This document shows positions 8,893 to 26,731 of a DNA stretch of 64,000 nt, in pieces. The stretch is from Aurantiacibacter gangjinensis. GTDB taxonomy: Bacteria; Pseudomonadota; Alphaproteobacteria; Sphingomonadales; Sphingomonadaceae. Numbering within the stretch: position 1 is the first letter of the stretch; every line of letters starts with the position of its first letter. Location of the stretch: the NCBI RefSeq assembly GCF_001886695.1, contig NZ_CP018097.1, positions 1,321,001 through 1,385,000 of the forward strand, in the 5' to 3' direction. Below the pieces are notes generated by a model, which did not search any database, was not told the DNA's origin, and worked only from the letters and a program-made list of their open reading frames with translations. The position numbers were made by a program, and so were the translations under genes.

Positions 8893-8908
8893 ATTTGTCC
8901 GGACAAAT
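8893..8908. promoter_or_regulatory. Operator-like palindrome, copy 4 (perfect 16-mer)
   Basis: ATTTGTCCGGACAAAT lies 22 nt upstream of the DUF1838 start, on the DUF1838 side of the divergent gap. Its centre is 40 bp from copy 5. Confidence 0.8.
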
Positions 8909-8932
8909 TCTGCGATTCTGTCTTGACTTTAG

Positions 8933-8948
8933 ATTTGTCCGGACAAAT
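8933..8948. promoter_or_regulatory. Operator-like palindrome, copy 5 (perfect 16-mer) next to a -35-like box
   Basis: ATTTGTCCGGACAAAT lies on the lyase-operon side of the divergent gap. TTGACT (8923-8928) stands 4 nt upstream, so the palindrome would overlap the promoter spacer of the operon starting at 8975. This is the same layout as at 5264. Confidence 0.8.
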
Positions 8949-8974
8949 TGTGAAGCTGAAACAGGATAAGAAAT

Positions 8975-12745: not shown

Positions 12746-13825
12746 ATGGGCAAACTATCGGGCATCACCGTCCTCGACCTGACGCTGTTCCTGCCGGGGC
12801 CGATGATGACGCGGCTGATGGCCGACCAAGGCGCGCGGGTCATAAAGATCGAACCGCCCACCGGCGATCCGGCGCGGGCGATGGAGCCCTTCGAAGGCGG
12901 CCACTCGGTATGGTTTGCCAATTGCAATCGCGGCAAGCAAAGCCGCGCGCTGGACCTCAAATCGGACGAAGGCCGTCTCGCGCTCACCGCGCTGATTGCC
13001 GAGGCCGATGTCTTCGTCGAAGGTTTTCGGCCCGGCGTGATGAAGCGGCTGGGCTTCGGTTACGACAATGTGCGCGCGATCAATCCGGCCATCATCTATT
13101 GTTCGATATCGGCTTTCGGGCAGGATGGCGCGCTGGCGCATCATCCCGCGCATGACATGGCAGTACAGGCGCTGACGGGGCACATGTCGCTGAACGATGG
13201 GCCCGACGGCACGCCCGTGGTGCCCGGCGTACCCTCGGCCGATCTCGCAGCCAGCCTCACCGCGCTCTCGGCCGTGCTGATGGCGCTGATCGGGCGCGAG
13301 CGGACGGGCGAGGGCGACTATATCGATTGCGCCATGTTCGACAGCCTGCTGCCATGGATCACCCACGTTGCAGGGGATGCCATTGCAGGCGGGGATAGCC
13401 CGAAAAGCAGCGAGCAGCGCTCCACCGGTGGCGCGGCGATGTACCAGGTCTATGCCACGTCGGATGGCAAGCATGTGACGCTTGCCGGGCGCGAACCGAA
13501 ATTTGCCGCGAACCTGCTGACGGCGCTGGGTCGCGAAGACCTGATTGCGCACGCTGCAAGGCCTGCTGGTGATCAGGGCGAGCTGATCGCGTTCCTCAAG
13601 GAGACTTTCGCTACGCGCACGCGGGACGATTGGGTGGAATGGTTCGCGGACAAGGATGTCGCCTTTGCCCCCGTGCTCGATTTCCGCGAGGCGCTGGACC
13701 AGCCACATATCGCCGAGCGCGAATTGCTGGTGAAAGGCCCGGAAGGCGGCCACCAGATCGCGCCGCCCATACGCTTCGCCAGCGAGGACTGGACACCGGG
13801 GAATGTACCGGAGCTTGGCGAATGA
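12746..13825 (+). CDS. Class III CoA-transferase (CaiB/BaiF family), copy 2
   Basis: 359 aa, slightly shorter than copy 1. GITVLDLTLFLPGPMMTRLMA and GARVIKIEPPTGDPARAM at the N-terminus, CSISAFGQDGALAHHPAHD in the middle, and PSADLAASLTA with the expected catalytic Asp are all typical. It starts 5 nt after copy 1 and is the last gene of the 8975-13825 operon. The GntR gene converges on it after 8 nt. Probable role: activation of a dicarboxylic or branched acid using succinyl-CoA or acetyl-CoA as donor; the substrate is inference. Confidence 0.92.
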   Translation: MGKLSGITVLDLTLFLPGPMMTRLMADQGARVIKIEPPTGDPARAMEPFEGGHSVWFANCNRGKQSRALDLKSDEGRLALTALIAEADVFVEGFRPGVMKRLGFGYDNVRAINPAIIYCSISAFGQDGALAHHPAHDMAVQALTGHMSLNDGPDGTPVVPGVPSADLAASLTALSAVLMALIGRERTGEGDYIDCAMFDSLLPWITHVAGDAIAGGDSPKSSEQRSTGGAAMYQVYATSDGKHVTLAGREPKFAANLLTALGREDLIAHAARPAGDQGELIAFLKETFATRTRDDWVEWFADKDVAFAPVLDFREALDQPHIAERELLVKGPEGGHQIAPPIRFASEDWTPGNVPELGE

Positions 13826-13833
13826 GCGCCGTT

Positions 13834-14589
13834 TCAGCTCTCGACGTCGATGTGCATCGAATAGGCGAAGCGTTCGCCGGGGTGATGGCTGACCGAAATC
13901 TCGAAAATGCGGCCCTTGGGATCGACATAGCATCGTATGATCCGCAGCACCGGATCGCCCTCCTCGATCTCCAGCGCGCGCGCAGTATCGGTATCGGCCG
14001 CGACCGCCTGGATATCCTGCGTAACCTTGCCCACACGAATGCCGGACATCTTCTCGATCTGGCTGAACAGCGTGCCTGCCGACAGGTCCAGCGAGGCCAC
14101 GGCTTCGCCCAGCAATTCGTGGAAATAGGCATGGGTCAGCGCGATGGGGCGACGGCGCTGGGGCGAACGGCGAAGCCCGCGAAAACAGGTCCAGCTGCCC
14201 GACACGTCACCGTCGATATGGCCCGCGACCTCATCCGGGATCGAGCCGCTCCCGCCAGCTTCGTAAGCAACCTGGGAATCGCGCGCATACTGCAGGATTT
14301 CGCCCACATTGGAGAGCGGCTGGTGCAGCGCGCCGCCGCGTGCCGCCGCGGGTTGCACCGTCGTGCCGCTGCCGCGCTTCCTCTCGATAAGCCCTTCCGA
14401 TTGCAGGCGTTTCAGCGCCTCTCGCACGGTGAAGCGGCTGACATTATGCTCCTTGCACAGGGCCGTTTCGGTGGGGAATGGCGTCGCATCGGAAAAGTCG
14501 CCCGCCAGGATCGCGTCGCGCAATTCTCCCGCCAGCTGCAGGTAACGCGGCACACGCGCTTTCGGCGATTTTGCGGTGGCCTCGGCCAA
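13834..14589 (-). CDS. GntR-family transcriptional regulator with UTRA (HutC-type) effector domain
   Basis: 251 aa. The winged helix (about residues 15-80) has PRYLQLAGELRDAILAGDF, FPTETALCKEHNVSRFTVRE and LIERKRGSGTTVQ. A UTRA ligand-binding domain (about 100-250) includes LSAGTLFSQIEKMSG, ALEIEEGDPVLRIIRCYVD and SVSHHPGERFAYSMHID. I use TTG at 14589 as start because GGAG stands 6 nt before it; an alternative GTG is at 14553. HutC-type GntR proteins are usually repressors that bind short GTC..GAC or TGTA..TACA palindromes, so this gene is a good candidate to read the TTGTCCGGACAA sites of the island. The 41-nt gap to prpD copy 1 has no such site. Confidence 0.92.
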   Translation of the reverse strand: MAEATAKSPKARVPRYLQLAGELRDAILAGDFSDATPFPTETALCKEHNVSRFTVREALKRLQSEGLIERKRGSGTTVQPAAARGGALHQPLSNVGEILQYARDSQVAYEAGGSGSIPDEVAGHIDGDVSGSWTCFRGLRRSPQRRRPIALTHAYFHELLGEAVASLDLSAGTLFSQIEKMSGIRVGKVTQDIQAVAADTDTARALEIEEGDPVLRIIRCYVDPKGRIFEISVSHHPGERFAYSMHIDVES

Positions 14590-14630: not shown

Positions 14631-15851
14631 ATGAGCGAAGCGCTGCTTTCGCAACTGGCCCAAAGGCTGTCGCGCCCGGTTTCCGCCGAGGATCGCCAGC
14701 GCGCGCGGCTGCATCTGCTCGACTGGCTGGCCTGCGTGGCGGGCGCTCGCGATACAGAAGCGGGACATCTGGGTGGTGAGATTTCGCGCGCCGGATGGGA
14801 GCGGGCAACCTATGCCGGCAATGCGCTGGAAATGGACGATGTCCACCGCACCGCGCTGTTGCATCCCGGCCCGGTGATCTGGCCTGTCGCCATGAGCATG
14901 GGCAGCGCGGCTATGGAACAGCGCCTCGATGGAGCCGTGCGCGGCTATGAGGCGATGATCGCTGTAGGCGCCGCGCTTGACGCGCATCATTACGCCCATT
15001 GGCATCCCACGGCGACGGCAGGCGTGATCGGTGCGGCGGCGGCTTTCGGCTCGCTGATCGGCTTCGCGCCTGTCGAACATGCGCAGGCCATGGCCAATTC
15101 CGCCAGCGTTGCAGGCGGGCTATGGCATATGCGGCACGACGATGTCCTGACGAAGCAATGGCACATCTATCACGCGGTGCGCACGGGGCGCGATGCGGCG
15201 CTGCACGTGCATTACGGCGCAACCGGGCCGAAAGGCATTCTGGAAGGTCCGCAGGGGCTGTTCGCTGCGATGACGCGCGAGCCGGGGCAATTGGCGGATG
15301 CGGGCGAAGGATGGCTGATCCACCAGGTCAGCTTCAAGCCTTTTGCCGCATGCCGCCATGCGCATCCGGCTATAGATGCGGCGATGGAGCTGCGGAAAGC
15401 GGGCAAGCTGGAAGCACCTTTTCAGGTCGAGACTTTCGCAGACGCGCTGGCTTTTTGCGACAGGCCCGACCCGCAAACAGAGCTGGAAGCGAAGTTCTCG
15501 ATCCAGCATGCCGTGGCCGTCGTGGCAGCGGGCCGCGATGCGGAGCCGCAGGATTTCACCATGGATGTCGTGGGCGAACTGGCAGACCTTCGCGCGCAGG
15601 TCAGCGTTGCGGAAGACCCGGCGATCACGGCGCGATACCCTGCCCATTTCGGGGCGCGGGTGAACGGCCTGGAACTGGTCGATACGCTGGGCGATCCGGA
15701 ACGGCCGGTATCGCAGGACCGGATTGCCGAGAAAATGCAAACGCTGGCGAAGCTCGGCGGCGTGAAGGATGCGGACCGCGCCATATCGCTAGCGCTCGAA
15801 GGCCACGATGCCGCTGCCATCGACTCCATGCTGGAGGACTGGCTGGCATGA
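14631..15851 (+). CDS. MmgE/PrpD-family protein, copy 1
   Basis: 406 aa. The all-helical N-terminal domain has LHLLDWLACVAGARDTEAG, ALEMDDVHRTALLHPGPVIW and HHYAHWHPTATAGVIGAAAA, and the C-terminal lid has FKPFAACRHAHPAIDAAMEL. These match the 2-methylcitrate dehydratase / cis-aconitate decarboxylase / iminodisuccinate epimerase superfamily, which acts on polycarboxylates. The gene opens the 14631-24404 operon, and the next gene overlaps by 4 nt (ATGA). The two adjacent PrpD-type genes differ in sequence, which suggests a heteromer or two steps. Its start faces the GntR start across 41 nt. The reaction cannot be assigned. Confidence 0.9.
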   Translation: MSEALLSQLAQRLSRPVSAEDRQRARLHLLDWLACVAGARDTEAGHLGGEISRAGWERATYAGNALEMDDVHRTALLHPGPVIWPVAMSMGSAAMEQRLDGAVRGYEAMIAVGAALDAHHYAHWHPTATAGVIGAAAAFGSLIGFAPVEHAQAMANSASVAGGLWHMRHDDVLTKQWHIYHAVRTGRDAALHVHYGATGPKGILEGPQGLFAAMTREPGQLADAGEGWLIHQVSFKPFAACRHAHPAIDAAMELRKAGKLEAPFQVETFADALAFCDRPDPQTELEAKFSIQHAVAVVAAGRDAEPQDFTMDVVGELADLRAQVSVAEDPAITARYPAHFGARVNGLELVDTLGDPERPVSQDRIAEKMQTLAKLGGVKDADRAISLALEGHDAAAIDSMLEDWLA

Positions 15852-17131
15852 GCGCGACCAGCCAAATCCTCGATTTTGCAGGTGGCTCGCATACCCTTCC
15901 GCCCGAGGTCCGCCGCCATGCGGAACGGCTTCTCGGCGATACGCTGGCCGTCGGCGCGGCAGGCGTTGGCGCGCCGGGGGAGGCGCCCATCCTCGCTACG
16001 GCGCGCGCCTTCGGCTCCGGCTTTGATGCGCGTCTGATCGGCTCCGACGCGATGCTGCCGGCTGCAAGCGCTGCCTTCGTAAACGGCTATCGCATCCATT
16101 GCCTGGAATGGGACGCGGTGCATGAGCCCGCCGTGGTGCACGCCATGAGCGTTGTCACCGCGGCGCTGGGCGCAGCCATCGACCGGCGCGGCGGATGTGA
16201 CGCGCAAGAGGCTCTGACAGCGCTCGCCATCGGCGTGGATGTCGCCGCGGGGCTGGGCGTTGCGGCCGACAGCGCGCTCACCTTTTTTCGTCCCGCGACC
16301 GCAGGCGTGATCGGTGCGGCGCTGGCGATCGCGCGGATCGACGGGGCTCCGATGGCCGATGCGCTGGGCATCGCCTACTCCTCCGCCGCCGGCACAATGC
16401 AGGCGCATGTCGAGGGGCTGGAAACGCTCCCCTTCCAGATCGCCAATGCCGCCCGCGCCGCCGTCGTGGCGAGCGATCTCGCAAAGGCTGGCTTCGCCGG
16501 GCCGAAGGACGCGCTGGAAGGCCAGTTCGGCTATATGACGCTGTTTGATCAGGGCGATTTGTCGCGCTACACCACTACGCTGGGCGAGCGGTGGCTGATT
16601 GCCGAATTGAGCGTGAAACCCTTCCCCAGCGGCAGGGCGAGCCACGCTGCGCTGGGTGCATTGCAGGGCATCACCGCTGGCACGCAGAGAAAACGCATCG
16701 AACTCGCCTGCCCGCCACTCATACGCCGCCTGGTCGGTCGCCCCTACAAGCCGCACATGACGCCCGCTTATGCGCGGCTTTGCCTGCCATGGCTCGCCGC
16801 CCTGATGCTGACCGATGGCCGCATCGATCCGCGCCGTTTTTCCGCCGAGCACATGGCCGATCCCAAGCTCGCGGCGCTAGCAGCGAACGTCACACTGGTG
16901 GCGGATGGAAATGACGATCCCAATGCGCTTTTCCCGCAGGAATTGCGCATCACCTTTGAAAACGGCGAGACCAAAGCCCACGCTATCGCGCACACGCTGG
17001 GCAGTCCGGAAAATCTACTCACCGCAGCGCAGGCCTCTGCGAAATACGATCTCGCGCGCGAACTCGCCCCTGCTGACGCAGACCCGCGCATTTTTGACGA
17101 TCCGCTCGCCTATTTTACGAAAGCCTTATGA
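15848..17131 (+). CDS. MmgE/PrpD-family protein, copy 2
   Basis: 427 aa. ILDFAGGSHTLPPEVRRHAE and RLLGDTLAVGAAGVG open the fold. YRIHCLEWDAVHEPAVVHAM, FRPATAGVIGAALAIARIDG and LSVKPFPSGRASHAALGAL follow at the usual family positions. The ATG overlaps the stop of copy 1 and the stop overlaps the start of the adenylating enzyme, so translation is coupled on both sides. Family members dehydrate or isomerise methylcitrate-like acids. In this operon the protein could act on the acid freed by the amidase or PuuE-like hydrolase; that is speculative. Confidence 0.9.
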   Translation: MSATSQILDFAGGSHTLPPEVRRHAERLLGDTLAVGAAGVGAPGEAPILATARAFGSGFDARLIGSDAMLPAASAAFVNGYRIHCLEWDAVHEPAVVHAMSVVTAALGAAIDRRGGCDAQEALTALAIGVDVAAGLGVAADSALTFFRPATAGVIGAALAIARIDGAPMADALGIAYSSAAGTMQAHVEGLETLPFQIANAARAAVVASDLAKAGFAGPKDALEGQFGYMTLFDQGDLSRYTTTLGERWLIAELSVKPFPSGRASHAALGALQGITAGTQRKRIELACPPLIRRLVGRPYKPHMTPAYARLCLPWLAALMLTDGRIDPRRFSAEHMADPKLAALAANVTLVADGNDDPNALFPQELRITFENGETKAHAIAHTLGSPENLLTAAQASAKYDLARELAPADADPRIFDDPLAYFTKAL

Positions 17132-18495
17132 CCTACCCGACCTATTTCGAAGCGCTCGACCACAAGCAGATGCTGGCCGATTATCCCGTCGGTGACGACT
17201 TCACCGCGCGCTATCGCAGCATGAGCGCGGACGAGCTTTTCGCCCTGCAGGACGCGCAATTCCGCAGACTGATGCAGCGCGGTTGGGAAATCCCCTTCTA
17301 TCAGCGCCTGTGGGGCGCGCAGGGTATCGAGGCGGGCGATATCGACGGGCTGCGTGATATCGGCAAGCTGCCCGTCTACGACAAGAGCGACCTGATGGCT
17401 TCCATCGCCGAGCACCCGCCCTACGGCGACTTTCACGGCATGGGCGATCCGGCGACACGTCCGCCAACCGTCTTCCACACCACCAGCGGCACGACCGGCA
17501 AGCCGCAAGTGCTGATGTTCGGACCTAAGGGGCGCGAAGTCGGCAATCTGCTGGTGGGGCGCATGTATCGCTGGATGGGACTGACCGGCGACGATGTGGT
17601 CCACTCCGTCTACGGCCACGGCATGATCAATGGCGGGCACTACATCCGCGAGGCAGTGACGAAGTTCACCAATTCCGTGTTCCTGAGCGCAGGCACAGGC
17701 ATCGAAACGCGCAGCGTCAACCAGGTGCAGCTGATGGCCGATTTCGGGGTGACCTGCATTGTCGGCTTCGTCGATTATGTCCGCAAGCTGGCGGCGACTG
17801 CTGAAGCGGAAGAGTTGTTCGACCGCATCAATATCCGCATGATCATCGGCCATCTGGGCACCGAAGATCGCAGCGCGACTGAACAGGCGTGGCACGGCGC
17901 ACAGGCCTATGACTGGTACGGCGTTGGCGACACCGGATGCATCGCGGGCGAGGGGCCTGACCGCGACGGCCTGTATGTCTGGGAAGACGCGCAATATCTT
18001 GAACTGCTCGATGTCGATAGCGGCGCGCAGGTCGAGCGCGGCGGGACGGGCGACATGGTCGTGACCTGCCTTTACAAGGACGACATCGCCCCATGCATCC
18101 GCTTCAACACACATGACATCACGCATGAGCTGGATGGCCGCGGCGAGATCGCTTTCAAGCGGATCGCCGGCTTCAAGGGCCGCAGCGACAACATGGTGAA
18201 GCTGCGCGGCATCAACGTATTCCCCCACGCCATCGGCGCAATCATCGAGAACCGCCCCGAGCTTACGGGCGAATATGTCTGCCATTTGCGCCGCGATGTC
18301 TCTAGCCGCGACGCGATGGTGGTGACGCTGGAGAGCCATGGTGGTAGCGATGCAGGCGAACTGGCCGAACTGCTCAAACGCGGCCTTGGTGTGGAGGTGG
18401 ATGTGGAACTGACCGGTCCCGGCGGCACGGCGACGGCCACGGAGATCGACAAGCGCCAGAAGCCGCTGCGCCTGATCGACGAGAGGAACCTCTGA
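17128..18495 (+). CDS. PaaK-like adenylate-forming enzyme (acyl/aryl-CoA ligase family)
   Basis: 455 aa, close to phenylacetate-CoA ligase length. FHTTSGTTGKPQVLMFGPKG is the ATP-binding P-loop-like motif of the adenylate-forming superfamily. YDWYGVGDTGCIAGE and MVVTCLYKDDIAPCIRFNTH follow, and FKGRSDNMVKLRGINVFPHA is the PaaK-type C-terminal hinge. The protein should activate a carboxylic acid with ATP, most likely to its CoA thioester. Starting YPTYFEALD rather than with a PaaA-like leader, and lying far from any paa gene, it probably has its own substrate. It overlaps prpD copy 2 by 4 nt and precedes an amidase. Confidence 0.9.
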   Translation: MTYPTYFEALDHKQMLADYPVGDDFTARYRSMSADELFALQDAQFRRLMQRGWEIPFYQRLWGAQGIEAGDIDGLRDIGKLPVYDKSDLMASIAEHPPYGDFHGMGDPATRPPTVFHTTSGTTGKPQVLMFGPKGREVGNLLVGRMYRWMGLTGDDVVHSVYGHGMINGGHYIREAVTKFTNSVFLSAGTGIETRSVNQVQLMADFGVTCIVGFVDYVRKLAATAEAEELFDRINIRMIIGHLGTEDRSATEQAWHGAQAYDWYGVGDTGCIAGEGPDRDGLYVWEDAQYLELLDVDSGAQVERGGTGDMVVTCLYKDDIAPCIRFNTHDITHELDGRGEIAFKRIAGFKGRSDNMVKLRGINVFPHAIGAIIENRPELTGEYVCHLRRDVSSRDAMVVTLESHGGSDAGELAELLKRGLGVEVDVELTGPGGTATATEIDKRQKPLRLIDERNL

Positions 18496-18496
18496 C

Positions 18497-19669
18497 TTGG
18501 TCGATTTCGCTGACCTGATAGCGCGCAACGAACCGTTGAACGCCTTCGCTGATTTCGACGAAAGCGCGCAGGGCGGCGAGGGGCCGCTGGCGGGCGTCAC
18601 CGTGGGGGTGAAGGCGAATGTGGCGGTGCAGGGCTTGCCCTGGACTGCGGGGCTGGAAGCTTACCGGGGTCGCATCGCCGAGAAAGACGCCAAGACGGTC
18701 GCATGCCTGCGCGATGCGGGTGCGATCATCATCGGCACGCAGAATATGGAAGAAGGGGCGCTCGGCTCCAAGTCCGACAACCCGTTCTACGGTGCGGTGC
18801 AGAACCCGCACCGGAACGGCTTCTCGCCGGGTGGATCATCGGGCGGCAGCGCCGCAGCGGTTGCGGCGGGGCTGTGCGATGCGGCGCTTGGTACCGATAC
18901 GATGGGGTCCGTCCGCATCCCCGCCGCGCATTGCGGCATTTACGGCTTCAAACCGGCCACCAAGGCAGTGAGCCAGGACGGACTGGAGCCTGCCGACCGC
19001 GCGCTCGATGCCATCGGGCCGATGGCGCGTAGTCTCGACATGCTGCAGCGCGTCGCTTGGGAAATGTCGGATACCGGCGCGCAGATGGAGGATTGCCGCG
19101 GAGCGATCCTCGTGGACCATGGCGTGGAGGTGCACGAAGATGTCTTGGCTGTGTTCGACCGCGTGCTCGGCACGATGAAAGCATCGCCAGCGAACGTCAG
19201 TCTCGACCATCCCAATTCGCGCATTCGCTTTGCCGGCTTCATCCATGTATCGCACCGCATGGCCGCCCATTTGCAGGGCGTGAAAGGCCTATCGCCGCAT
19301 CTGCAAAAGCTGCTGACCTATGGGCCGGGCCGCGCGCAGGAGAAGCTGGCGCAGGACACGCAAATCCTCAACGATACCCACGCCAAGGTGCGCCGGATCG
19401 TGGAGGAACACGGGTTTCTCATCATGCCGACCGTGCCCAATCCGGCGTTTTCGCATGACGAGCCAGAACCGGCGGCTCAAGCCGACTTCACGTGCCTCGC
19501 CAACATCGCCGGCCTGCCCGCCCTGACCCTGCCCGCGGGGTGGACCGAGAATGGCCTGCCCATCGGCGTGCAACTGGTCGGGCGGACCGATTACGAGGCG
19601 GGCCTGTTCGCCATGGCCCGCTATCTGGACCTGCGCCTCGATGCCTATCGCCCGCCTGCCAATCTGTAA
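18497..19669 (+). CDS. Amidase-signature-family amidohydrolase
   Basis: 390 aa. The amidase-signature triad region is intact: GVKANVAVQG supplies the Lys, GFSPGGSSGGSAAAVAAGL the cis-Ser, and LGTDTMGSVRIPAAHCGIYG the nucleophilic Ser. The usual GTDTGGS reads GTDTMGS here, a substitution next to the nucleophile. The family hydrolyses linear amides to acid plus amine or ammonia in the cytoplasm. The start is TTG at 18497, one base after the ligase stop, with AGAGGA upstream. Together with the PuuE-like hydrolase in this operon it implies a substrate with amide-type nitrogen. Confidence 0.93.
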   Translation: MVDFADLIARNEPLNAFADFDESAQGGEGPLAGVTVGVKANVAVQGLPWTAGLEAYRGRIAEKDAKTVACLRDAGAIIIGTQNMEEGALGSKSDNPFYGAVQNPHRNGFSPGGSSGGSAAAVAAGLCDAALGTDTMGSVRIPAAHCGIYGFKPATKAVSQDGLEPADRALDAIGPMARSLDMLQRVAWEMSDTGAQMEDCRGAILVDHGVEVHEDVLAVFDRVLGTMKASPANVSLDHPNSRIRFAGFIHVSHRMAAHLQGVKGLSPHLQKLLTYGPGRAQEKLAQDTQILNDTHAKVRRIVEEHGFLIMPTVPNPAFSHDEPEPAAQADFTCLANIAGLPALTLPAGWTENGLPIGVQLVGRTDYEAGLFAMARYLDLRLDAYRPPANL

Positions 19670-19680
19670 GGAGAGACCCC

Positions 19681-19989
19681 ATGCGTATAATCTGCCTATT
19701 CAACCTGAAGGATGGCGTGGACGTTGCCGAATATGAGGAATGGGCGAAAACACGCGATATTCCGGGCGTCAATGACCTCGCCTCGGTGACGAATTTCTCG
19801 GTTCATAAGTCGACAGGTGTGTTCGGTGACGACACGGCAAAACCGCATTTCGATTATGTCGAGATCATCGACATCACCGGCATGGACGCTTTTATTGCCG
19901 ATATCTCGACAGAAGGTTTCCAAGCCGCCGCGGCACCGTTCCAGGGCTATGCGGACGCGCCGCAATTCATCCTCACAGAGGACCTGTAG
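19681..19989 (+). CDS. Small HapK/REDY-like protein
   Basis: 102 aa. MRIICLFNLKDGVDVAEYEE, RDIPGVNDLASV and HFDYVEIIDITGMDAFIADI resemble the REDY-like / HapK small alpha-beta barrel proteins, a dimeric ferredoxin-like fold related to EthD and antibiotic-monooxygenase domains. No catalytic residue is obvious. A GGAGAGACCCC leader gives a good ribosome site. It sits between the amidase and the SDR, with an SDR start 1 nt after its stop. Small proteins of this fold often act as accessory or cyclase-like enzymes; the role here is unknown. Confidence 0.75.
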   Translation: MRIICLFNLKDGVDVAEYEEWAKTRDIPGVNDLASVTNFSVHKSTGVFGDDTAKPHFDYVEIIDITGMDAFIADISTEGFQAAAAPFQGYADAPQFILTEDL

Positions 19990-19990
19990 G

Positions 19991-20791
19991 ATGGGCCGTT
20001 TCACCGGCAAGACCATCGTCGTCACCGGCTCTGGGAAGGAGAAGGGGTTAGGGCAGGGCATCTTGCAAGCCTTTGCCGACGAAGGCGCGAATTGCGTTGT
20101 TTCCGATGTGCGGCTGGATGACGAGGTGGATGGCGTGGCAGACGAGCTTCGGCAGCGCGGCGCCAAGGTGGCGACGGTGCAGTGCGATGTTTCCGATGCA
20201 GCAAGCTGTCAGGCGCTGGTGGCGCAGGCGCTCGATCATTTTGGTAGCGTCGATGTGTTCGTCAACAATGCCGGGATCGGGTTCAAGATGAAGCCGCTGT
20301 TGGACGTCGATACTGCCGACGAGTGGGATCAGGTACTGGCCGTAAACCTCTCCGGCGCCTTTTACTGCACACAGGCAGCAGCGCGTGCGATGGTGGATGC
20401 GGGCAAGGGCGGACGAATCATTAATATCGCCAGCCAGGCGGCGAAAACCGGCTTCCCGCATCTGCCCGCTTATGTCTCCAGCAAGCATGGTATGGTCGGC
20501 CTGACCCGCGCCTCTGCCGTGGAACTGGGCGCTCATGGCATCACGGTGAATGCCATCTGCCCCAATCATGTGACCACCGGCCTCGGAGCGCAGCAGAACG
20601 AATATTTCAGCAAATTGCTCGGCTTTGCGAAGGTCGAGGATTACCTCGCCAACATGGCCGCGAAGAACCCGATGGGGCGGCCCGGCCTGCCTTCCGATAC
20701 GGCAGCCGCCTGCCTCTGGCTGGCGAGTGACGAGGCGGTCTATGTGACCGGCGAAGCGCTGAATATCAGCGGTGGGGAGGAAATGCACTGA
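19991..20791 (+). CDS. Short-chain dehydrogenase/reductase (SDR)
   Basis: 266 aa, classical SDR length. The cofactor site VVTGSGKEKGLGQGILQAF is a slightly expanded TGxxxGxG. NNAGIG, the IINIASQAAKTGF segment with Ser, and the YVSSK catalytic pair are present, and the protein ends ...LNISGGEEMH. It should oxidise or reduce an alcohol/ketone with NAD(P). It starts 1 nt after the HapK-like gene, and its stop overlaps the ATG of the next gene (TGATG). In the pathway it could oxidise a hydroxy-acid intermediate; that is inference. Confidence 0.93.
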   Translation: MGRFTGKTIVVTGSGKEKGLGQGILQAFADEGANCVVSDVRLDDEVDGVADELRQRGAKVATVQCDVSDAASCQALVAQALDHFGSVDVFVNNAGIGFKMKPLLDVDTADEWDQVLAVNLSGAFYCTQAAARAMVDAGKGGRIINIASQAAKTGFPHLPAYVSSKHGMVGLTRASAVELGAHGITVNAICPNHVTTGLGAQQNEYFSKLLGFAKVEDYLANMAAKNPMGRPGLPSDTAAACLWLASDEAVYVTGEALNISGGEEMH

Positions 20792-21654
20792 TGCGCGAAG
20801 AACGCATGGATTGGCCCGGCGGTGCGAAGCTGGCGCTCAGCGTCGTCGTCAATGTCGAGGAAGGCAGCGAGATGACCGTCGCGCGCGGCGACAGGGGCAT
20901 GGAGCCGGTGGACGAGCTTGGGGTCTTCGTCAAATCGCCGATCCGCAATTATTCCAATGAAAGCAATTATCTCTACGGCATCAAGGCGGGCGCACCGCGT
21001 ATCGTCAAGCTGCTGAAACGCTATGACATCATGGCCAGCTGGACCGTTGCCGCCATGGCGCTGGAAAACCATCCCGAGATTGCCGAGGCCATTGTCGAGC
21101 TGGGGCATGAGCCCGTGAGCCACGGCTGGCGCTGGGTCCACCAGTTCAAGATGGACGAGGATGCGGAGCGCGACTTCATCCGCAAGGCCGTGGCCAGCAT
21201 CGAAAAGACTTGCGGTGTCCGCCCCTATGGCTGGCTGAGCCGCTACCTCCTCACCGACAATACCCGCCGCCTGCTGCAGGAGGAGGGCTTCACCTACCAC
21301 ATGGACGATTACAGCGGCGATGTGCCCTTCTGGGATCGCGAGACGACCGGCAAACCCATGTGCATCGTGCCCTACCAGGTCGACAGCAATGACATGAAAA
21401 TGTGGACCGATCCCGCACTAACCCCGCATCAATGGCTCGATTACGCGAAGGCCAATTTCGACCAGCTTTATCGCGAGGGCGAGGAGGGCAATCCGAAAAT
21501 GATGAGCCTTGGCCTGCACCTGCGGATCATCGGGCGTCCGGGCCGGATCTGGGCGCTGGAAGAGTTCTTCTGCCATGTTCGCGAGCATGACGGTGTGTGG
21601 GTGACGACGCGCAAGGCCATCGCCGATCATTTCACGGCGGCGCATCCGGCATGA
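20791..21654 (+). CDS. PuuE-like polysaccharide-deacetylase-superfamily hydrolase (cyclic amide/C-N hydrolase candidate)
   Basis: 287 aa. The NodB-like fold lacks a sugar-deacetylase context. It has SVVVNVEEGSEMTVARGDRG at the start, ASWTVAAMALENHPEI, the SHGWRWVHQ motif, VRPYGWLSRYLLTDNTRRLL and the C-terminal GLHLRIIGRPGRIWALEEFF. This last pattern is characteristic of the PuuE-type allantoinase / peptidoglycan-deacetylase-like branch, whose known members include enzymes that open cyclic ureides. The gene is translationally linked to the SDR (TGATG) and to the enoyl-CoA hydratase (4-nt overlap). It most likely hydrolyses a C-N bond in the pathway substrate. The substrate is not known. Confidence 0.82.
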   Translation: MREERMDWPGGAKLALSVVVNVEEGSEMTVARGDRGMEPVDELGVFVKSPIRNYSNESNYLYGIKAGAPRIVKLLKRYDIMASWTVAAMALENHPEIAEAIVELGHEPVSHGWRWVHQFKMDEDAERDFIRKAVASIEKTCGVRPYGWLSRYLLTDNTRRLLQEEGFTYHMDDYSGDVPFWDRETTGKPMCIVPYQVDSNDMKMWTDPALTPHQWLDYAKANFDQLYREGEEGNPKMMSLGLHLRIIGRPGRIWALEEFFCHVREHDGVWVTTRKAIADHFTAAHPA

Positions 21655-22406
21655 GTCTCCGCCTCGATTATGACGGGCAGACCGCGCACCTGCTGATCGA
21701 CCGCGCGGACAAGCGCAACGCCTTCACGATGGCGATGTGGGAGGCGCTGCCCGGCCTGCTCGAACAGGTGCGCGACAAGGGAGACATTCGCTTGCTCATC
21801 CTGCGCGCGGCGGATGGCGGCACGTTTTGCGCGGGCGCGGATATCCGCGAATTGCTGGCGAATAAGGACGATGCCGACTGGCGCGCGGCCAATCAGGCGG
21901 CAATCAACCGCGTGCAGCACGACCTGGCGCGCTTCGACCTGCCGACCATGGCCTTTGTGGAAGGGGACGCCATTGGCGGCGGCTGCGGTCTCGCGCTTGC
22001 CTGCGACCTGCGTGTGGCCACGCCAGCCGCGCGTTTCGGCATCACGCCGGCCAAGCTGGGCCTTGTCTATCCGCTGCACGATGTGAAGCTGCTGGTCGAT
22101 CTGGTCGGGCCGGGGCAGGCCAGGCGCATGCTCTATACCGGCGCGCTGCTGTCGGCGGAGGAAGCGCAGCGTATCGGGCTTGTCGAGACGATTGCCGATA
22201 GCCCTGCCGCGCTGGCCGATGCCATAATGGCCGCCAGCCCGCATTCCATCCGTGAGATCAAGCGGATCGTGCGCCGCGTCCTCGACGGGCAGGCGGAGGA
22301 CGACGCCGAAACGCGTGCCATCTTCGCCGCCGCATTCGACGGCGCAGACTTTGCAGAAGGCACCGCCGCCTTCGTAGAGAAACGCAAGCCGGAGTTCGGG
22401 AAATGA
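21651..22406 (+). CDS. Enoyl-CoA hydratase/isomerase (crotonase) family protein
   Basis: 251 aa. ADKRNAFTMAMWEALPGLL, FCAGADIRELLAN (oxyanion hole), DAIGGGCGLALACDLRVATP (second oxyanion strand), FGITPAKLGLVYPLHDVKLL and YTGALLSAEEAQRIGLV follow the crotonase order. At the position where classical hydratases carry the first catalytic Glu the sequence reads GDAIGGG, and PAKLGL occupies the second, so isomerase, decarboxylase or hydrolase activity is as likely as hydration. It overlaps both neighbours by 4 nt. Confidence 0.9.
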   Translation: MSLRLDYDGQTAHLLIDRADKRNAFTMAMWEALPGLLEQVRDKGDIRLLILRAADGGTFCAGADIRELLANKDDADWRAANQAAINRVQHDLARFDLPTMAFVEGDAIGGGCGLALACDLRVATPAARFGITPAKLGLVYPLHDVKLLVDLVGPGQARRMLYTGALLSAEEAQRIGLVETIADSPAALADAIMAASPHSIREIKRIVRRVLDGQAEDDAETRAIFAAAFDGADFAEGTAAFVEKRKPEFGK

Positions 22407-23302
22407 CCATCACCCACGGCACCATCCTTGGCGGCCTGTCGACCGTCCCGGATCTCGATGCAGGCCTCAAGGCCTATCACGATGTGCTGGGCCTTAGCCT
22501 CGTCGAGCAGGGCCAGCTCGATGCCGACCTCGCCACCAGTTGGGGTTGCCCTGCCAGTGCCGGATCGCCCTATGCTGTGCTGCAACCGGAGAGCGGCGAA
22601 CCTTGCTGGTTCCGTCTCGTGGAGCAGCCGGAGCATCCCGATTTTCGCCCGACCCGGACCTATGGCTGGGCCGCCTTTGAATGCACGGTTCAGGACGTGT
22701 GGCGCTGGCCGAAAGAGCTTCCGGCAGAGCTCTTCACGATTGTCGGCATGCCCAAAAATATCGAGAATATGCAGCTCACCTTCATCCCCATGCAGGCGCT
22801 GGGGCCGGGGCGGGAGATGGTCTACTTGAATGAAGTGCTGGTGCCGGAAAGCGATCTGTTCCTGCCCGCCGCCAGGAGCGACGTTGACCGCATCTTCATC
22901 TGTGTGCTGGCAACGCCGGACCGTGAAGCCTCGCTTGGCTGGTATATCGACGCGCTGGGGCTGGAGCGCGGCACCGATTACACCATCCCCTACACGATGA
23001 TAAACAAGGCGTTCGACTTGCCCGCGGGCACGCAGACGACACTCACCATGCTGCAGAAAGGCAAGATGCCGATCATCGAGGTGGATGATTATCCGCCTGC
23101 CGCCACCGTGCGCCCGCGCTACGAAGGCCGCCTGCCGCCCGGCAATGCGCTGGTGACGCTGGCGGTCGATGATCTCGACACATGCAAGGCCGCGTGGCTG
23201 TCTGCCCCGACGGCACGCGAGGGCGCGCTGTATGACGGACGCCGCGCGGTCACCACTATGGGGCCGGCAGGCGAATTGCTGGAACTGGTGGAGACCGGAT
23301 GA
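22403..23302 (+). CDS. Two-domain VOC (glyoxalase/extradiol-dioxygenase-fold) protein
   Basis: 299 aa with two VOC modules. The first runs from HGTILGGLSTVPDLDAGLKA with YHDVLGLSLVEQG. The second starts at DRIFICVLATPDREASLGWY and ends TTMGPAGELLELVETG, whose Glu is typical of a metal ligand. The family includes glyoxalases, epimerases and ring-cleaving dioxygenases, so the reaction cannot be assigned. No signal peptide is present, unlike the VOC protein at the left edge (1-1030), which has a similar two-module layout. It is coupled by 4-nt overlaps to the genes before and after. Confidence 0.88.
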   Translation: MTITHGTILGGLSTVPDLDAGLKAYHDVLGLSLVEQGQLDADLATSWGCPASAGSPYAVLQPESGEPCWFRLVEQPEHPDFRPTRTYGWAAFECTVQDVWRWPKELPAELFTIVGMPKNIENMQLTFIPMQALGPGREMVYLNEVLVPESDLFLPAARSDVDRIFICVLATPDREASLGWYIDALGLERGTDYTIPYTMINKAFDLPAGTQTTLTMLQKGKMPIIEVDDYPPAATVRPRYEGRLPPGNALVTLAVDDLDTCKAAWLSAPTAREGALYDGRRAVTTMGPAGELLELVETG

Positions 23303-24087
23303 TGCGCAGCCTGCTGTCTTTCCTGCTGCTGATGCTTGCTGTCCCCGCCGCGATGGCACAGGCGCAGGCCATCGACCTCACCGCCGAGCCGGCGCCGACA
23401 CCGCAAGATGTCATCGCCGCTGCCATCGAGGCCCACGGCGGAGAGTTCTTCCGCGATCCCGGCACTCTGGCGCTGAGTGGACAGGCGCATTTTTTCAATT
23501 CCGACAGCACGGTCAGGGTCTGGTCGCCCGATTACCGCATGTGGCGCGAGTTTACCCGCGGGCGCACCGTGTCGCATGGCGCCGACGGCAAGGTCCGCAT
23601 CCTCGCGCATGACGAGGCGGGCGGGACGATTTTCGAAGTCGGCTATGATGGCGAGACCACCTGGACTCAGGACGGTATCATGCCGCGCGATCTGGCCGAT
23701 GCCTATTGGGCGAGCAATTTCGGCTTCGGCATCATCCGCTCTGCGCTGGACGCAGGCTTTACCCTGTCATTCGCGCCGGGACGTTATCTGCAGGATGGCG
23801 AGACGGTGATTGTGAGGATTGTCGATCCGCGGGGGCAGGAAACGCTGTTCGGTATCGACGTCGACACCGCCTTCATCACCTACATGGCCTTTCGCTCCCC
23901 GCGCGGCTGGCATGAGCGTTTCTACAGCGACTTTCGCCAGCTTGATAATGGCTGGGTGCAGGCCCAGCGCGTCGTGCTCGTATATGACGGGATCGTCGCG
24001 AACCAGGTATTCTGGGAAGAGGTGAGCGTCGGAGAAACGATCGACCCCGGGATCTTTACGCCGCCTGCCCCAGAAGAGGCGGAGTGA
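23299..24087 (+). CDS. Exported protein of unknown function
   Basis: 262 aa. The signal peptide MRSLLSFLLLMLAVPAAMAQ leads into a beta-rich domain (DVIAAAIEAHGGEFF, YRMWREFTRGRTVSHGADG, YDGETTWTQDG, YMAFRSPRGWHERFYSDF). Its layout recalls LolA/LolB-like or outer-membrane lipoprotein-sorting folds that bind hydrophobic ligands, but I cannot assign it. It overlaps the VOC gene and the YciI gene by 4 nt each, so it belongs to the operon. As the only exported protein in this operon, it could handle a hydrophobic substrate or product in the periplasm; that is inference. Confidence 0.8.
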   Translation: MMRSLLSFLLLMLAVPAAMAQAQAIDLTAEPAPTPQDVIAAAIEAHGGEFFRDPGTLALSGQAHFFNSDSTVRVWSPDYRMWREFTRGRTVSHGADGKVRILAHDEAGGTIFEVGYDGETTWTQDGIMPRDLADAYWASNFGFGIIRSALDAGFTLSFAPGRYLQDGETVIVRIVDPRGQETLFGIDVDTAFITYMAFRSPRGWHERFYSDFRQLDNGWVQAQRVVLVYDGIVANQVFWEEVSVGETIDPGIFTPPAPEEAE

Positions 24088-24404
24088 ACACGCTTTATGC
24101 CTGCTGGTGCCGCGATGGCGCAGACGCGGCCCGCCTTCGTGACGAGCACCTTGCCGCCCATCTTGCGCACATTGAAGCCAATCTGGACCGCTACGCCGTA
24201 GCAGGGCCTTTGAAAGACGAGGGCGGCACCAACGGTTCGTTGCTGATTGTAAAAGCGACCAGCCGCGAGGACGCGCGCGCTTTCTTGGAGGCCGACCCCT
24301 ATTTCCATGCGGGCATCTGGCCGACAATAGCGATCGAACCGTTTTGCGCCGTTGCGGGGGACTGGGTCGGAGGCGCGGCGTGGAAGGGCGCTAGGTCCGG
24401 CTAG
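24084..24404 (+). CDS. YciI-family small protein
   Basis: 106 aa. YACWCRDGADAARLRDEHLA, HIEANLDRYAVAGPLKDEGG and SREDARAFLEADPYFHAGIW are typical of the YciI (dimeric alpha-beta barrel) family, whose DPY and His residues are conserved. Family members include dehalogenase-like and muconolactone-isomerase-like enzymes as well as orphans. It is the last gene of the 14631-24404 operon. Its 3' end overlaps the 3' end of the convergent AhpD-like gene by 14 nt, so no separate terminator is visible here. Confidence 0.88.
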   Translation: MNTLYACWCRDGADAARLRDEHLAAHLAHIEANLDRYAVAGPLKDEGGTNGSLLIVKATSREDARAFLEADPYFHAGIWPTIAIEPFCAVAGDWVGGAAWKGARSG

Positions 24405-25008
24405 CGTTGACTGCGAGAGCATGCGGGTCCGCTTCCCATCCGCTCCTCCCCAAGCTCTCTCGCGCGAAGGACAGCGGCGCATCTTCCAGCTCGGTCGCGA
24501 GCGTGGTGTTCCAGCGATTGAGGAATCCGAACAGCGATATCATGGCGACGATTTCGACGATCTGGCGTTCGCTGAAATGCGCGCGCATCGCAGCAAAATG
24601 CGCGTCCGTTGCGGCATTGGGCGATTGCCCGGCCGCCAGCGCCAGGTCGAGCGCCGCGCGTTCCGCATCGGAGAAGAGGGGACTGCTGGCATAGTCCCAC
24701 ACCGCTGCCACTTTCTCGGCATCCGCGCCCGATTGCCGCGCCGCGCCATGGGCGGTGTGCGCCTCGCAATATCGGCACCCGGCCGCAGAACTCGTGACGA
24801 GCGCCACCAGCCGCTTAAGCTTCAAATCGACCTCGCTGTTGCCGTATATCGTGGCTACCAGTTGCTCCATCGCACCCAGCAATTCCGGCCAGCGCGCCAT
24901 GGTCAGCGTGTCGTTTGCGGTAAAGCCCATCGTCTCTTGCGCGAAGGCGAGGGCAGCGCGTGTTTCTTCCGGCAGCTCCTCGGGCGAGAGAGGCGCGATG
25001 CGGCTCAC
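24391..25008 (-). CDS. Carboxymuconolactone-decarboxylase/AhpD-like protein
   Basis: 205 aa. Helical CMD/AhpD fold with the redox-type CXXC motif in SSAAGCRYCEAHTAHGAARQ, the general alkylhydroperoxidase-like signature. The protein continues with SPLFSDAERAALDLALAAG and a C-terminal FGFLNRWNTTLATELE. With CXXC and His it is more likely an AhpD-type peroxidase or peroxidase-like protein than a lactone decarboxylase. Its start overlaps the stop of the exported protein upstream by 4 nt (ATGA), and it is transcribed from the divergent promoter at 25644-25714 that has palindrome copy 6. Confidence 0.9.
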   Translation of the reverse strand: MSRIAPLSPEELPEETRAALAFAQETMGFTANDTLTMARWPELLGAMEQLVATIYGNSEVDLKLKRLVALVTSSAAGCRYCEAHTAHGAARQSGADAEKVAAVWDYASSPLFSDAERAALDLALAAGQSPNAATDAHFAAMRAHFSERQIVEIVAMISLFGFLNRWNTTLATELEDAPLSFARESLGRSGWEADPHALAVNASRT

Positions 25009-25643
25009 CCGGCGGGCTCTTCGGACGCCACGCGGTTGCAGCCGCCCTGGACCCAGCGCAAATTGATGCCGACGATATCGCTGTCTGGCGCCGCCCAGCT
25101 ATAGCTTTCCGCCCGCACCGAATCGTCACGGTGGACGTATAACACCAATACTGGATTGTTCGTGCTGCCCTCGGCCCAGGTTACATTGCGCAGCCGCATA
25201 GTGACATCCGGCGCCTCGTCCCCGCCATCGAGGAAGATGCGGCCGCCTTGGTCGAAGATCGGTAGGCCGCGCTGGAAGGTCCAGTCTTCCTCGCCGTTCT
25301 CGTCCGGCTCGTGCTTGCGAACGGCAAACCAGCAGGCGAAGCGGCTGGCCATGCGGATTTCACTACCGCCAATCTCCCAGCCATGCTCCTCACTCCAGGC
25401 AAGGCCGGGAATGGGCGTATCGGACCAGTCGAACTGCGCGTTGCCAAAGGCGTCGATATAGCGCCAGCTGCCGTTCTCGCCGATCTCGATGCCTAGCCAT
25501 TCGACCGGCTCGCGCCCTTCTTCCTCGGCGAAATAGGCGTCTTCGGTATTGGTCCAGATGCCGGGCTCCGGCATGTCGTGTGCAGCGGCCGGGACTGCGA
25601 GGCTCAAGGCCATGGCGGCAATCAGCGTGGCGGTTTTCTTCAT
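25005..25643 (-). CDS. Exported protein of unknown function
   Basis: 212 aa. Signal peptide MKKTATLIAAMALSLAVPAAA and a short mature start HDMPEPG. The mature part is rich in Trp, Asp and Glu (IWTNTEDAYFAEEEGREP, SWRYIDAFGNAQFDW, FACWFAVRKHEPDENGEEDW, FDQGGRIFLDGGDEAPD) and has two Cys. I recognise no domain. It is the first gene of the minus arm of the divergon, coupled to the AhpD-like gene by a 4-nt overlap. Palindrome copy 6 lies 37-52 nt upstream of its start, so it probably belongs to the same regulon as the catabolic genes. Confidence 0.8.
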   Translation of the reverse strand: MKKTATLIAAMALSLAVPAAAHDMPEPGIWTNTEDAYFAEEEGREPVEWLGIEIGENGSWRYIDAFGNAQFDWSDTPIPGLAWSEEHGWEIGGSEIRMASRFACWFAVRKHEPDENGEEDWTFQRGLPIFDQGGRIFLDGGDEAPDVTMRLRNVTWAEGSTNNPVLVLYVHRDDSVRAESYSWAAPDSDIVGINLRWVQGGCNRVASEEPAG

Positions 25644-25679
25644 TTGCCTTGCGTAACCCGTCAGCCCATGGTTGGAAAG

Positions 25680-25695
25680 AGTTGTCCGGACAAAT
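25680..25695. promoter_or_regulatory. Operator-like palindrome, copy 6 (15/16 match)
   Basis: AGTTGTCCGGACAAAT with a perfect TTGTCCGGACAA core (25682-25693). It lies in the 71-nt divergent gap between the exported protein (start 25643, minus) and the NADPH-dependent reductase (start 25715, plus). One site can control both arms. It is 16.7 kb from copy 5, which makes chance recurrence of a 12-bp core very unlikely. Confidence 0.75.
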
Positions 25696-25714
25696 CGCCA
25701 ACAGGGATGTCGCC

Positions 25715-26731
25715 ATGACCACTACGCGCCAGATCGTGCTTGCCAGCCAGCCGCAGGCAGCGCCGCTCGCCAGCGATTTCACGATGGCGGAGGCAGAGCT
25801 GCCGCCTCTCGCGGATGGCGAGCTGCTGGTGCGGGTGCATGTGCTGTCGCTCGATCCCTATCTGCTCTCGCGCATCAGGGGCCGCCACATGTCGGGCGAC
25901 GCGCCTGACATCGGCGAGACGGTGCCGAGCGAGGGCGTGGGCGAAGTGCTCGAATCGCGCGCCGATGGCTTTGTACCCGGCGATTTCGTGCTGGGCGTTG
26001 TCGGCTGGCAGGAGCACGCCGTGCTGGATGGCAAAGTGGCGCGCAAGATCGATGCCTCGATCCGCCCGCTGTCGCTGCACTTGGGCGTGTGCGGCATGCC
26101 CGGCCTCACCGCCTATGCCAGCGCGCATCACCTTGCCAAGGCGACCGATGGCGACCGCGTGCTGGTCTCTTCCGCAGCGGGCCCGGTGGGCGGCACGGTA
26201 GGCCAGCTGGCGCGCATCATGGGAGCGGACAAGGTCGTCGGCATTGCCGGCGGGCCGGAGAAATGCGCGCTCGTGAAAAGCGACTACGGCTTCGACGATT
26301 GCGTGGATTACAAGGCCGATGGCTGGCAAGACCGCGTGGCCGCAGCCCTTCCCGATGGCATCAGCTATTATCACGACAATGTCGGCGGCGAGTTGCTGGA
26401 AACGGCGCTGGCGAACCTATCGCTCTATGGCCGCGTCGTGCTGTGCGGGCTCGCCTCGCAATACAGCCTCGACCATCGCCCCGCCGGGCCCAACCCCGGC
26501 ATCTATATCGGCAAGCGCGCGCAGCTTCTGGGGTTGGTCGTATATGATTTCATGCATGAGATCGACGATTACGCGGCGAAAGCTGCCGCTTGGATCGCCG
26601 ATGGCAAGCTATCCTATGTCGAGGACCGGGCAGACGGTCTCGACGCCGCGCCTGCCCTCTTTGAAAAGCTGGGACAGGGCAGCAATATCGGCAAGACCGT
26701 GGTGCAGCTGGTGCCGGAAGAGCGCGCATGA
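25715..26731 (+). CDS. NADP-dependent oxidoreductase (PTGR/CurA-like MDR family)
   Basis: 338 aa. The catalytic domain starts TTTRQIVLASQPQAAPLASD and has LDPYLLSRIRGRHM. The nucleotide domain has LVSSAAGPVGGTVGQLARIM and VVGIAGGPEKCALVKSDYGF, then YHDNVGGELLETALANL and GKRAQLLGLVVYDF. This is the zinc-free medium-chain reductase group that reduces alpha-beta double bonds of enones (prostaglandin reductase / YncB / CurA). ATG 25715 is used because the longer frame would cross the palindrome. The hydrolase-fold gene overlaps by 4 nt. It likely reduces an unsaturated ketone intermediate. Confidence 0.9.
   Translation: MTTTRQIVLASQPQAAPLASDFTMAEAELPPLADGELLVRVHVLSLDPYLLSRIRGRHMSGDAPDIGETVPSEGVGEVLESRADGFVPGDFVLGVVGWQEHAVLDGKVARKIDASIRPLSLHLGVCGMPGLTAYASAHHLAKATDGDRVLVSSAAGPVGGTVGQLARIMGADKVVGIAGGPEKCALVKSDYGFDDCVDYKADGWQDRVAAALPDGISYYHDNVGGELLETALANLSLYGRVVLCGLASQYSLDHRPAGPNPGIYIGKRAQLLGLVVYDFMHEIDDYAAKAAAWIADGKLSYVEDRADGLDAAPALFEKLGQGSNIGKTVVQLVPEERA

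Follow-up and report, generated by a model that had tools for sequence, protein, structure and literature searches.

An operator-linked gene set in Aurantiacibacter gangjinensis predicted to degrade an amide-rich compound with a branched dicarboxylate core

We analyzed a 64,000-nt stretch of the Aurantiacibacter gangjinensis genome (contig positions 1321001-1385000 of a 2.72 Mb genome in two contigs; hereafter the window) that carries a run of eleven genes encoding, among others, two MmgE/PrpD proteins, a PaaK-like ligase, an amidase, and a PuuE-like hydrolase. These genes belong to a larger operon that forms one regulon with two TonB-dependent receptors, because a palindrome, ATTTGTCCGGACAAAT, is shared by the promoters concerned and its strong sites cluster near the operon. 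With moderate confidence, we read this regulon as a single catabolic system for an amide-rich compound built around a branched C4-dicarboxylate, the simplest candidates being cyclic imides and lactams. The reading draws on gene content, conservation, co-occurrence, the shared operator, and conserved catalytic residues, with each catalytic step assigned from protein family and residues.

Results

The eleven-gene run is one half of a conserved operon

The original prediction described an eleven-gene, tightly coupled operon, and the coupling is borne out: all eleven genes lie on the plus strand at 14631-24404, and neighboring ends overlap by 1 or 4 bases or sit 1-11 bases apart. As a complete unit, however, the run falls short, since five upstream genes and a regulator also belong to it. 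The left half, on the plus strand, comprises a CitE-like acyl-CoA lyase of the HpcH/HpaI type (CitE, 8975-9820, likely true start GTG 8996), a MaoC hydratase (9813-10322), an acyl-CoA dehydrogenase that is mcd-like by position (ACAD, 10333-11523; PF00441/PF02771/PF02770), and two class III CoA-transferases (CaiB1, 11532-12740, and CaiB2, 12746-13825; both PF02515). A minus-strand GntR/UTRA regulator gene (13834-14589; PF00392 and PF07702), whose product is the presumed palindrome binder, sits between the halves.

The right half begins with PrpD1, an epimerase-like MmgE/PrpD protein (14631-15851), and its divergent partner PrpD2 (15848-17131; both PF03972 and PF19305), followed by a PaaK-like acyl-CoA ligase of its own subfamily (17128-18495; PF14535), an amidase-signature amidase (18497-19669; PF01425), a REDY-like HapK protein (19681-19989; PF11639 at 48.6 bits, cut-off 25), and a short-chain dehydrogenase (SDR, 19991-20791; PF00106), for which the longest open reading frame start, 19817, was rejected in favor of 19991. 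Next come a PuuE-like, predicted cyclic amide/imide hydrolase (20791-21654; PF01522/TIGR03212), an enoyl-CoA hydratase/isomerase (ECH, 21651-22406; PF00378), a two-domain VOC protein (22403-23302; PF00903), an exported protein (23299-24087), and a YciI-like protein (24084-24404; PF03795). The families originally named for these genes, including the unusual HapK, are backed by Pfam and NCBIfam. The exported protein is the only one of the eleven lacking a Pfam match; its AlphaFold2 model (mean predicted local distance difference test score 86.4) is closest in Foldseek to LolA3 (9tp6; E 8.9e-9, template modeling score 0.53), and a LolA/LolB-like fold of the lipoprotein-carrier type is predicted.

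A genome-neighborhood search, which the original prediction had proposed, shows that the set recurs. Searching the VOC protein against 396 genomes of the order found relatives in 71, and we read 20 neighborhoods, 19 from this search and one (L061) from a PuuE search. The order ACAD-CaiB1-CaiB2-GntR-PrpD1-PrpD2-ligase-amidase-HapK-SDR-PuuE-ECH-VOC is kept in 14 of them; the other six hold VOC homologues at 39-45% identity, and the gene set is not alongside. A ligase-alignment scan of 84,980 species genomes yielded 114 relatives, of which 80 were retained, all, by their titles, from sphingomonads except Peristeroidobacter and a few metagenome-assembled genomes named at higher rank only. All 13 core genes from MaoC to VOC are present in 50 of the 56 full-length loci of other species. 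Among the exceptions, PrpD1 is unmatched in L106 and L136, HapK in L150, and ECH and VOC in L155, and in L156 and L158, no match was found for MaoC, ACAD, both CaiB, PuuE, ECH, or VOC. The CitE family recurs in 51 of 94 related loci and in 61 of the 80 loci of the ligase scan. The exported and YciI-like proteins stand outside the core, being displaced, inverted, or unmatched in several relatives (for example, L045, L052, and L054). Because the order is kept in dozens of genomes, it is not a product of chance.

Rearranged PrpD-ligase-amidase sets recur in other Alphaproteobacteria. In a draw across the whole class (taken as Alphaproteobacteria from matches to named records), the ligase occurs at 52-62% identity in 17 of 288 other genomes, all of which lie outside the window's order. 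We read 12 loci from the 18 matched places: the ligase is adjoined by the amidase in 11 and by a PrpD gene in 10, usually with CaiB, ACAD, CitE, ECH, or PuuE genes close by. L209, a locus of another family, places PrpD1-PrpD2-ligase-amidase beside ECH and an isochorismatase-PuuEa-PuuEb set. The Tistrella mobilis plasmid pTM2 likewise carries PrpD-ligase-amidase with a GntR gene, but differs in that a single PrpD was matched, an acetyl-CoA hydrolase/transferase-type gene lies beside it, and ABC substrate-binding genes are close. No functional label came from related clusters on plasmids of Variovorax, Skermanella, and Chelatococcus.

A shared palindrome defines the regulon

Allowing up to three mismatches, the window contains six ATTTGTCCGGACAAAT sites, four exact and two with one mismatch, whereas 100 shuffles averaged 0.19 sites and never gave more than 1. 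Two copies (8893-8908 and 8933-8948) precede CitE in a promoter region held in common with a minus-strand gene for an exported DUF1838 protein (7923-9053; PF08894; start probably ~8876, judged by eye). Further sites front a minus-strand TonB-dependent receptor (1035-3314; site 3362-3377, one mismatch) and a plus-strand TonB-dependent receptor (4983-7802, likely ATG 5322; site 5264-5279), both PF00593/PF07715. Another (4505-4520) lies between a LysR gene and a plus-strand membrane-protein gene (4540-5205), whose product is 67% identical to the L153 member of a family present in 38 of 94 loci. The sixth (25680-25695, one mismatch) occupies the divergent promoter between Unk2, a minus-strand gene for an exported protein with no Pfam match (25005-25643), and a plus-strand MDR reductase (likely ATG 25715) and alpha/beta hydrolase pair (25580-28128). 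The link between the operon and the TonB receptors, which the original prediction had proposed, is supported by an operator shared by CitE and both receptors.

The genome as a whole contains the 10-base core 12 times and its reversed control not once, and eight of the 12 copies fall inside an island at 1301671-1346683. The genes beside the other four TGTCCGGACA sites, judged by eye with no family search, do not belong to this pathway. At two of these sites neither flank matches, at a third (L191) one flank matches in part, and the fourth (L190) carries the 13-base core TTTGTCCGGACAA. Loci totalling 2.68 Mb, in which some genomes appear twice, hold 213 core sites where base composition predicts ~3, and most of the 213 sit at these promoters. 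A core site lies at most 160 bases before CitE in 54 of the 60 CitE genes with readable upstream sequence in the 80 loci of the ligase scan. Core sites also mark the divergent promoter between an alpha/beta hydrolase and the isochorismatase-PuuEa-PuuEb genes, outside the window. In 14 operon-bearing genomes, 68 of 71 TTTGTCCGGACAA sites are within 80 kb of the ligase (0 of 2 in G188, 4 of 5 in G340). Of four genomes lacking the operon, two have no such site and two have one isolated site each, and the reversed control gave four matches over the 18 genomes.

The operator also extends beyond the sphingomonads. The 12 loci read in other families hold 14 core sites in 228 kb against 0.26 expected, spread over 7 of the 12, and nearest to PrpD1 (6), CitE (2), ECH (2), ACAD (2), and PuuE (1), with one near no identified start. 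Among the 56 full-length loci, all 52 with a GntR gene hold a site, as against one of the four without (L140 has two sites; L106, L146, and L148 have none), and the GntR/UTRA protein most likely controls the regulon through ATTTGTCCGGACAAAT.

Several additional genes were seen at or near sites. A class I methyltransferase of ~405 residues has an operator at its start (L064, 662-1915) and is found in other genomes of the island. In one genome, a carotenoid-oxygenase family gene (PF03055) lies ~1.6 kb from a regulon site (L196, 4747-6171), and cytochrome-c-like genes lie by sites in L192 and L195 (the family search covered L195 only, with a Pfam match just under its cut-off). In four short-form loci discussed below (L156, L157, L158, and L160), the palindrome core stands in the gap between GntR and PrpD1.

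A fixed pair of PrpD proteins

For the MmgE isomerase of Pseudomonas aeruginosa, PMC12290011 lists the residues H88, E91, H102, Y148, H152, K202, and K266. We use its numbering and set equivalences by motif and alignment, without the PA0881 sequence. In PrpD1, the equivalents of E91, H102, Y148, H152, K202, and K266 are kept in all 90 sequences (84 distinct), and the H88 position is N in 85 and G in 5. PrpD2 shows another pattern, with H88, E91, H102, and K266 kept and Y148, H152, and K202 lost in all 92 sequences (87 distinct). Both patterns are repeated in other families (8 of 8 for each protein). Because they are fixed in the window's own and in other families, PrpD1 is by its residues epimerase-like, and PrpD2 has the profile of a divergent partner under constraint, not of a copy in decay. 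A PrpD1-PrpD2 heteromer is plausible from these patterns; weighing against it, the Tistrella plasmid has a single place matching PrpD1, of the N type and beside the ligase and amidase, although that plasmid was not searched with PrpD2. The pair had been taken as a sign of a polycarboxylate intermediate, which is supported; the residues of PrpD1 favor an epimerase acting on a branched dicarboxylate over a polycarboxylate dehydratase. A fixed MmgE/PrpD pair in which each member lacks residues that the other keeps is a directly testable point.

The left half resembles an itaconate/methylsuccinate cluster

The best NCBIfam model for CitE is the RipC/Ccl citramalyl-CoA lyase (209.7 bits, below the cut-off of 375), and that for MaoC is RipB/Ich (230.5 bits, below 340); their best PDB matches are 3qll and the beta-methylmalyl-CoA dehydratase 8hgn, respectively. 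ACAD scores best against acryloyl-CoA reductase (336 bits), and CaiB1 against succinate-glutarate and succinyl-CoA:mesaconate CoA-transferases, all below cut-off. The itaconate/methylsuccinate cluster combines a CoA-transferase, an acyl-CoA dehydrogenase, a hydratase, a lyase, and an MmgE isomerase, and in P. aeruginosa it also holds a glyoxalase-family gene (PMC12290011 and PMC9875883). Our operon shares with the ich-mcd-mmgE-ict-ccl cluster of Pseudomonas and Cupriavidus the combination of class III CoA-transferase, MaoC, CitE, adjacent ACAD, and MmgE/PrpD; PrpD1 keeps the isomerase residues except H88, second-base Tyr included, and the glyoxalase-family gene of P. aeruginosa is a further point in common.

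The differences are equally clear. Here there are two CaiB and two PrpD genes, one PrpD lacks the site Tyr, His, and Lys, PrpD1 has N for H88, and CitE and MaoC score under the itaconate cut-offs. A ligase, amidase, PuuE-like protein, HapK, SDR, and ECH are added, and a palindrome regulon includes TonB receptors. The Yersinia rip operon, whose RipC and RipB are the best models for our CitE and MaoC, has three genes only, and, according to PMC12290011, neither a dehydrogenase nor an isomerase. By sequence comparison, then, the left half with PrpD is of the same kind as the itaconate/methylsuccinate cluster, yet it does not pass as that pathway. The original statement that no described pathway has this gene set accordingly holds for the whole set only, because the left half with PrpD corresponds to a described cluster (PMC12290011, PMC9875883).

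Could the operon simply be such a cluster, with the amidase, PuuE, ligase, SDR, and ECH as accessories or passengers? CitE, MaoC, ACAD, CaiB, and PrpD match it in kind, and an Azospirillum plasmid carries amidase-GntR-CaiB-ACAD-PrpD-MaoC-CitE. We nevertheless consider this unlikely: CitE and MaoC score well under the RipC and RipB cut-offs, PrpD-ligase-amidase persists without an adjoining CitE half (L156, L158, Tistrella), and PuuE and ECH bear the same operator in other families. The Azospirillum cluster itself (L165, 903-8843) is of the itaconate type with an amidase, and TRAP transporter genes lie alongside.

Amide hydrolases and a distinct ligase

The amidase keeps its Lys-Ser-Ser triad, with Lys39, Ser114, Ser115, and Ser138 present in 92 of 92 orthologues. 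The PuuE-like protein has TIGR03212 as its best model, and its closest solved relative is the PuuE allantoinase 3cl6 of Pseudomonas fluorescens, with similarity over residues 7-286 of 287. The two have the Glu pair and the SHG-R and HxR motifs in common. These features are also conserved in the 83 orthologues aligned. There the tested Glu, His, Arg, and Asp positions are fully kept, apart from one Asp position (D in 76, N in 7), and an aromatic position varies between W (59) and Y (24). With 256 bits against a cut-off of 424.6, the protein cannot be called an allantoinase; its gene context also differs. A purine-derived, allantoin-like ureide as substrate, with PuuE as a true allantoinase, would account for the closest structure and best model, but we judge it very improbable. 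Besides the score, the scan of the operon and its flanking genes yielded no family label for allantoicase, OHCU decarboxylase, or urease (the search for purine genes did not extend to the remaining genome), and ureide breakdown would not call for a lyase module acting on branched dicarboxylates. The nitrogen and CoA steps of the original prediction, namely, a cyclic amide/imide or ureide nitrogen and a ligase-dependent activation, are both supported as parts of a catabolic route.

The ligase reaches 153.4 bits with the PaaK model TIGR02155, against a cut-off of 646.3. A phenylacetate-kind route for an aromatic acid, with the ligase as a phenylacetate-type enzyme, might be suggested by this resemblance and by homogentisate genes downstream, yet it is highly unlikely. 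The score is far from the cut-off, the phenylacetyl-CoA epoxidase family is not named among the genes scanned, no operator precedes the homogentisate genes in the window, and, among the regions compared, those genes were matched in a same-genus relative only. They encode a homogentisate 1,2-dioxygenase (above the hmgA cut-off) and a fumarylacetoacetase that abut at 28875-31448, downstream of a minus-strand GST gene; past them, a minus-strand pair encodes a MacB/FtsX-type permease and an ABC ATPase (31769-33768). For the VOC protein, three positions were tried for a role as an extradiol dioxygenase; one of them varies between E (46) and Q (35) among 81 sequences, so the role is not supported.

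Transport and a companion module upstream of the window

For both TonB receptors, the best model is a siderophore receptor, below cut-off, and heme models also matched below cut-off. Solved-structure matches are mostly siderophore-type, with vitamin B12, pyrroloquinoline quinone, and heme receptors also among them, and fall mainly in the plug region. The receptors as heme-specific were considered and set aside on these below-cut-off scores and mixed matches. A siderophore route, in which a ferric siderophore is imported, its amide or imide bonds are cut by amidases, and a branched acid is degraded, would fit the receptor scores and the many amidases within one regulon. It is a quite unlikely explanation, however, given that the receptor matches lie mainly in the plug region, and we know of no siderophore with a branched succinate that needs ACAD-MaoC-CitE.

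The island continues upstream of the window with minus-strand genes for CaiB3, an HMG-CoA-lyase-like protein, LeuD, and LeuC, as well as an alpha/beta hydrolase, an isochorismatase-type hydrolase, two PuuE-like proteins (PuuEa and PuuEb), an aldehyde dehydrogenase, a nitrilase-superfamily hydrolase, an FAD oxidase, and a major facilitator superfamily transporter. Among the 396 genomes, PuuEa occurs in 35 of 35 that bear the ligase and in 33 of 361 that do not, counts that carry no phylogenetic correction; 61 genomes have both PuuEa and VOC, and 26 of these lack the ligase. At 511.9 bits, the island LeuC stays under the leucine-biosynthesis cut-off, and the genome has a separate canonical leuC (750.7 bits) elsewhere, so the island LeuC is specialized. 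LeuCD-like maleate hydratases exist, NicF is an isochorismatase-type maleamate hydrolase, and dimethylmaleate/citramalate offers an analogy for LeuCD plus a lyase. Taken together, the number of amide hydrolases (the amidase, three PuuE-like proteins, and the isochorismatase-type and nitrilase-type enzymes) suggests that the imported substrate is amide-rich.

Near the island TonB receptors, 14 of 94 loci (L066, 16089-17651, and 13 others) encode a flavin amine-oxidase family protein with a twin-arginine-like start. Periplasmic amine oxidase-cytochrome pairs exist.

Discussion

The proposed route runs as follows. The TonB receptors would import the compound, the PuuE-like hydrolase would open its ring amide, and the amidase would take off the nitrogen, leaving a branched succinate- or maleate-type acid. 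Ligase, SDR, and ECH may then activate and trim a side chain, with the roles of VOC, HapK, and YciI undefined, and PrpD1, probably with PrpD2, would epimerize the free branched dicarboxylate. CaiB1/CaiB2 would load CoA, ACAD desaturate, MaoC hydrate, and CitE cleave the product to an acyl-CoA and a 2-oxo acid. In parallel, the companion module upstream of the window, with its isochorismatase-type amidase, pair of PuuE-like proteins, LeuCD, CaiB, and HMG-CoA-lyase-like protein, may handle a related fragment, and the GntR/UTRA protein would regulate the whole set via ATTTGTCCGGACAAAT.

Several observations weigh against this route. CitE, MaoC, both CaiB, PuuE, ACAD, and the ligase all score under the equivalog cut-offs of their best models, and the PuuE-like protein might act on ureides instead of imides. 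No role is assigned to HapK, VOC, YciI, DUF1838, or the methyltransferase. The short loci L156, L157, L158, and L160 consist of GntR-PrpD1-PrpD2-ligase-amidase-HapK-SDR, with PuuE, ECH, VOC, ACAD, and CaiB unmatched (contig ends truncate L157 and L160). Operator sites occur in L140 though no GntR gene lies in its stretch. A search of the immediate promoter found no operator directly before PrpD1 in the window, so the model assumes that the right half is transcribed from the CitE promoter or by way of some other signal. Finally, the co-occurrence counts are not phylogeny-corrected, and the loci were picked around the ligase or VOC gene.

A more specific possibility is that the regulon is a complete aerobic route for using tetrapyrrole breakdown products (from heme, bilins, or chlorophyll) as a carbon and nitrogen source. 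In PMC10343206, oxidative cleavage of heme is proposed to end in two maleimides, hematinic acid, which bears the propionate arm, and methylvinylmaleimide, the latter of which that study did not itself detect. The pair of imide modules would correspond to these maleimide types. Through PuuE and the amidase, hematinic acid would yield a branched tricarboxylate closely akin to PrpD-type substrates, and the ligase would activate the propionate arm; dialkylmaleimides would pass through PuuEa/b, the isochorismatase-type amidase, LeuCD, CaiB3, and the HMG-CoA-lyase-like protein to give a 2-oxo acid and an acyl-CoA. The cells would import fragments precleaved by light or oxidants, or use another ring-opening enzyme. 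We hold this proposal to be improbable, because no tetrapyrrole-specific enzyme was named among the genes scanned and the heme oxygenase family PF01126 has no match in the organism's own genome; also counting against it, neither TonB receptor is specifically heme-like. A link to bacteriochlorophyll was looked at and not used: reaction-centre genes occur in 21 of 35 operon genomes versus 58 of 361 others, a count that is not phylogeny-corrected, and the A. gangjinensis genome has none.

Among the matches listed in searches of open-licence full texts, none showed a description of this system; the searches addressed the gene set, the catabolism of imides, maleimides, or tetrapyrroles, DUF1838 and HapK, and the operator letters. 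A HapK protein is merely listed in a gene table of PMC4609964. A cluster on the Aminobacter plasmid pSR3 (L168, 8818-20868) may join the opening of N-heterocycles to branched-dicarboxylate lyase genes a second time; there, RidA, an alpha/beta hydrolase, and a flavin reductase are next to PrpD-ACAD-CaiB-MaoC-CitE-ETF, with an LLM flavin oxidoreductase close by.

Half of the A. gangjinensis regulon corresponds in kind to a described pathway and the other half does not. The gene set and operator are present in many sphingomonads and appear again in other families of the Alphaproteobacteria, so the substrate is probably widespread in nature and not a local peculiarity. The regulon ties imide/amide hydrolysis to branched-dicarboxylate cleavage, a connection that is directly testable. 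The environmental origin of methylsuccinate was unclear until recently, according to PMC12290011; one answer would be a ring amide that supplies a lyase module of this kind.

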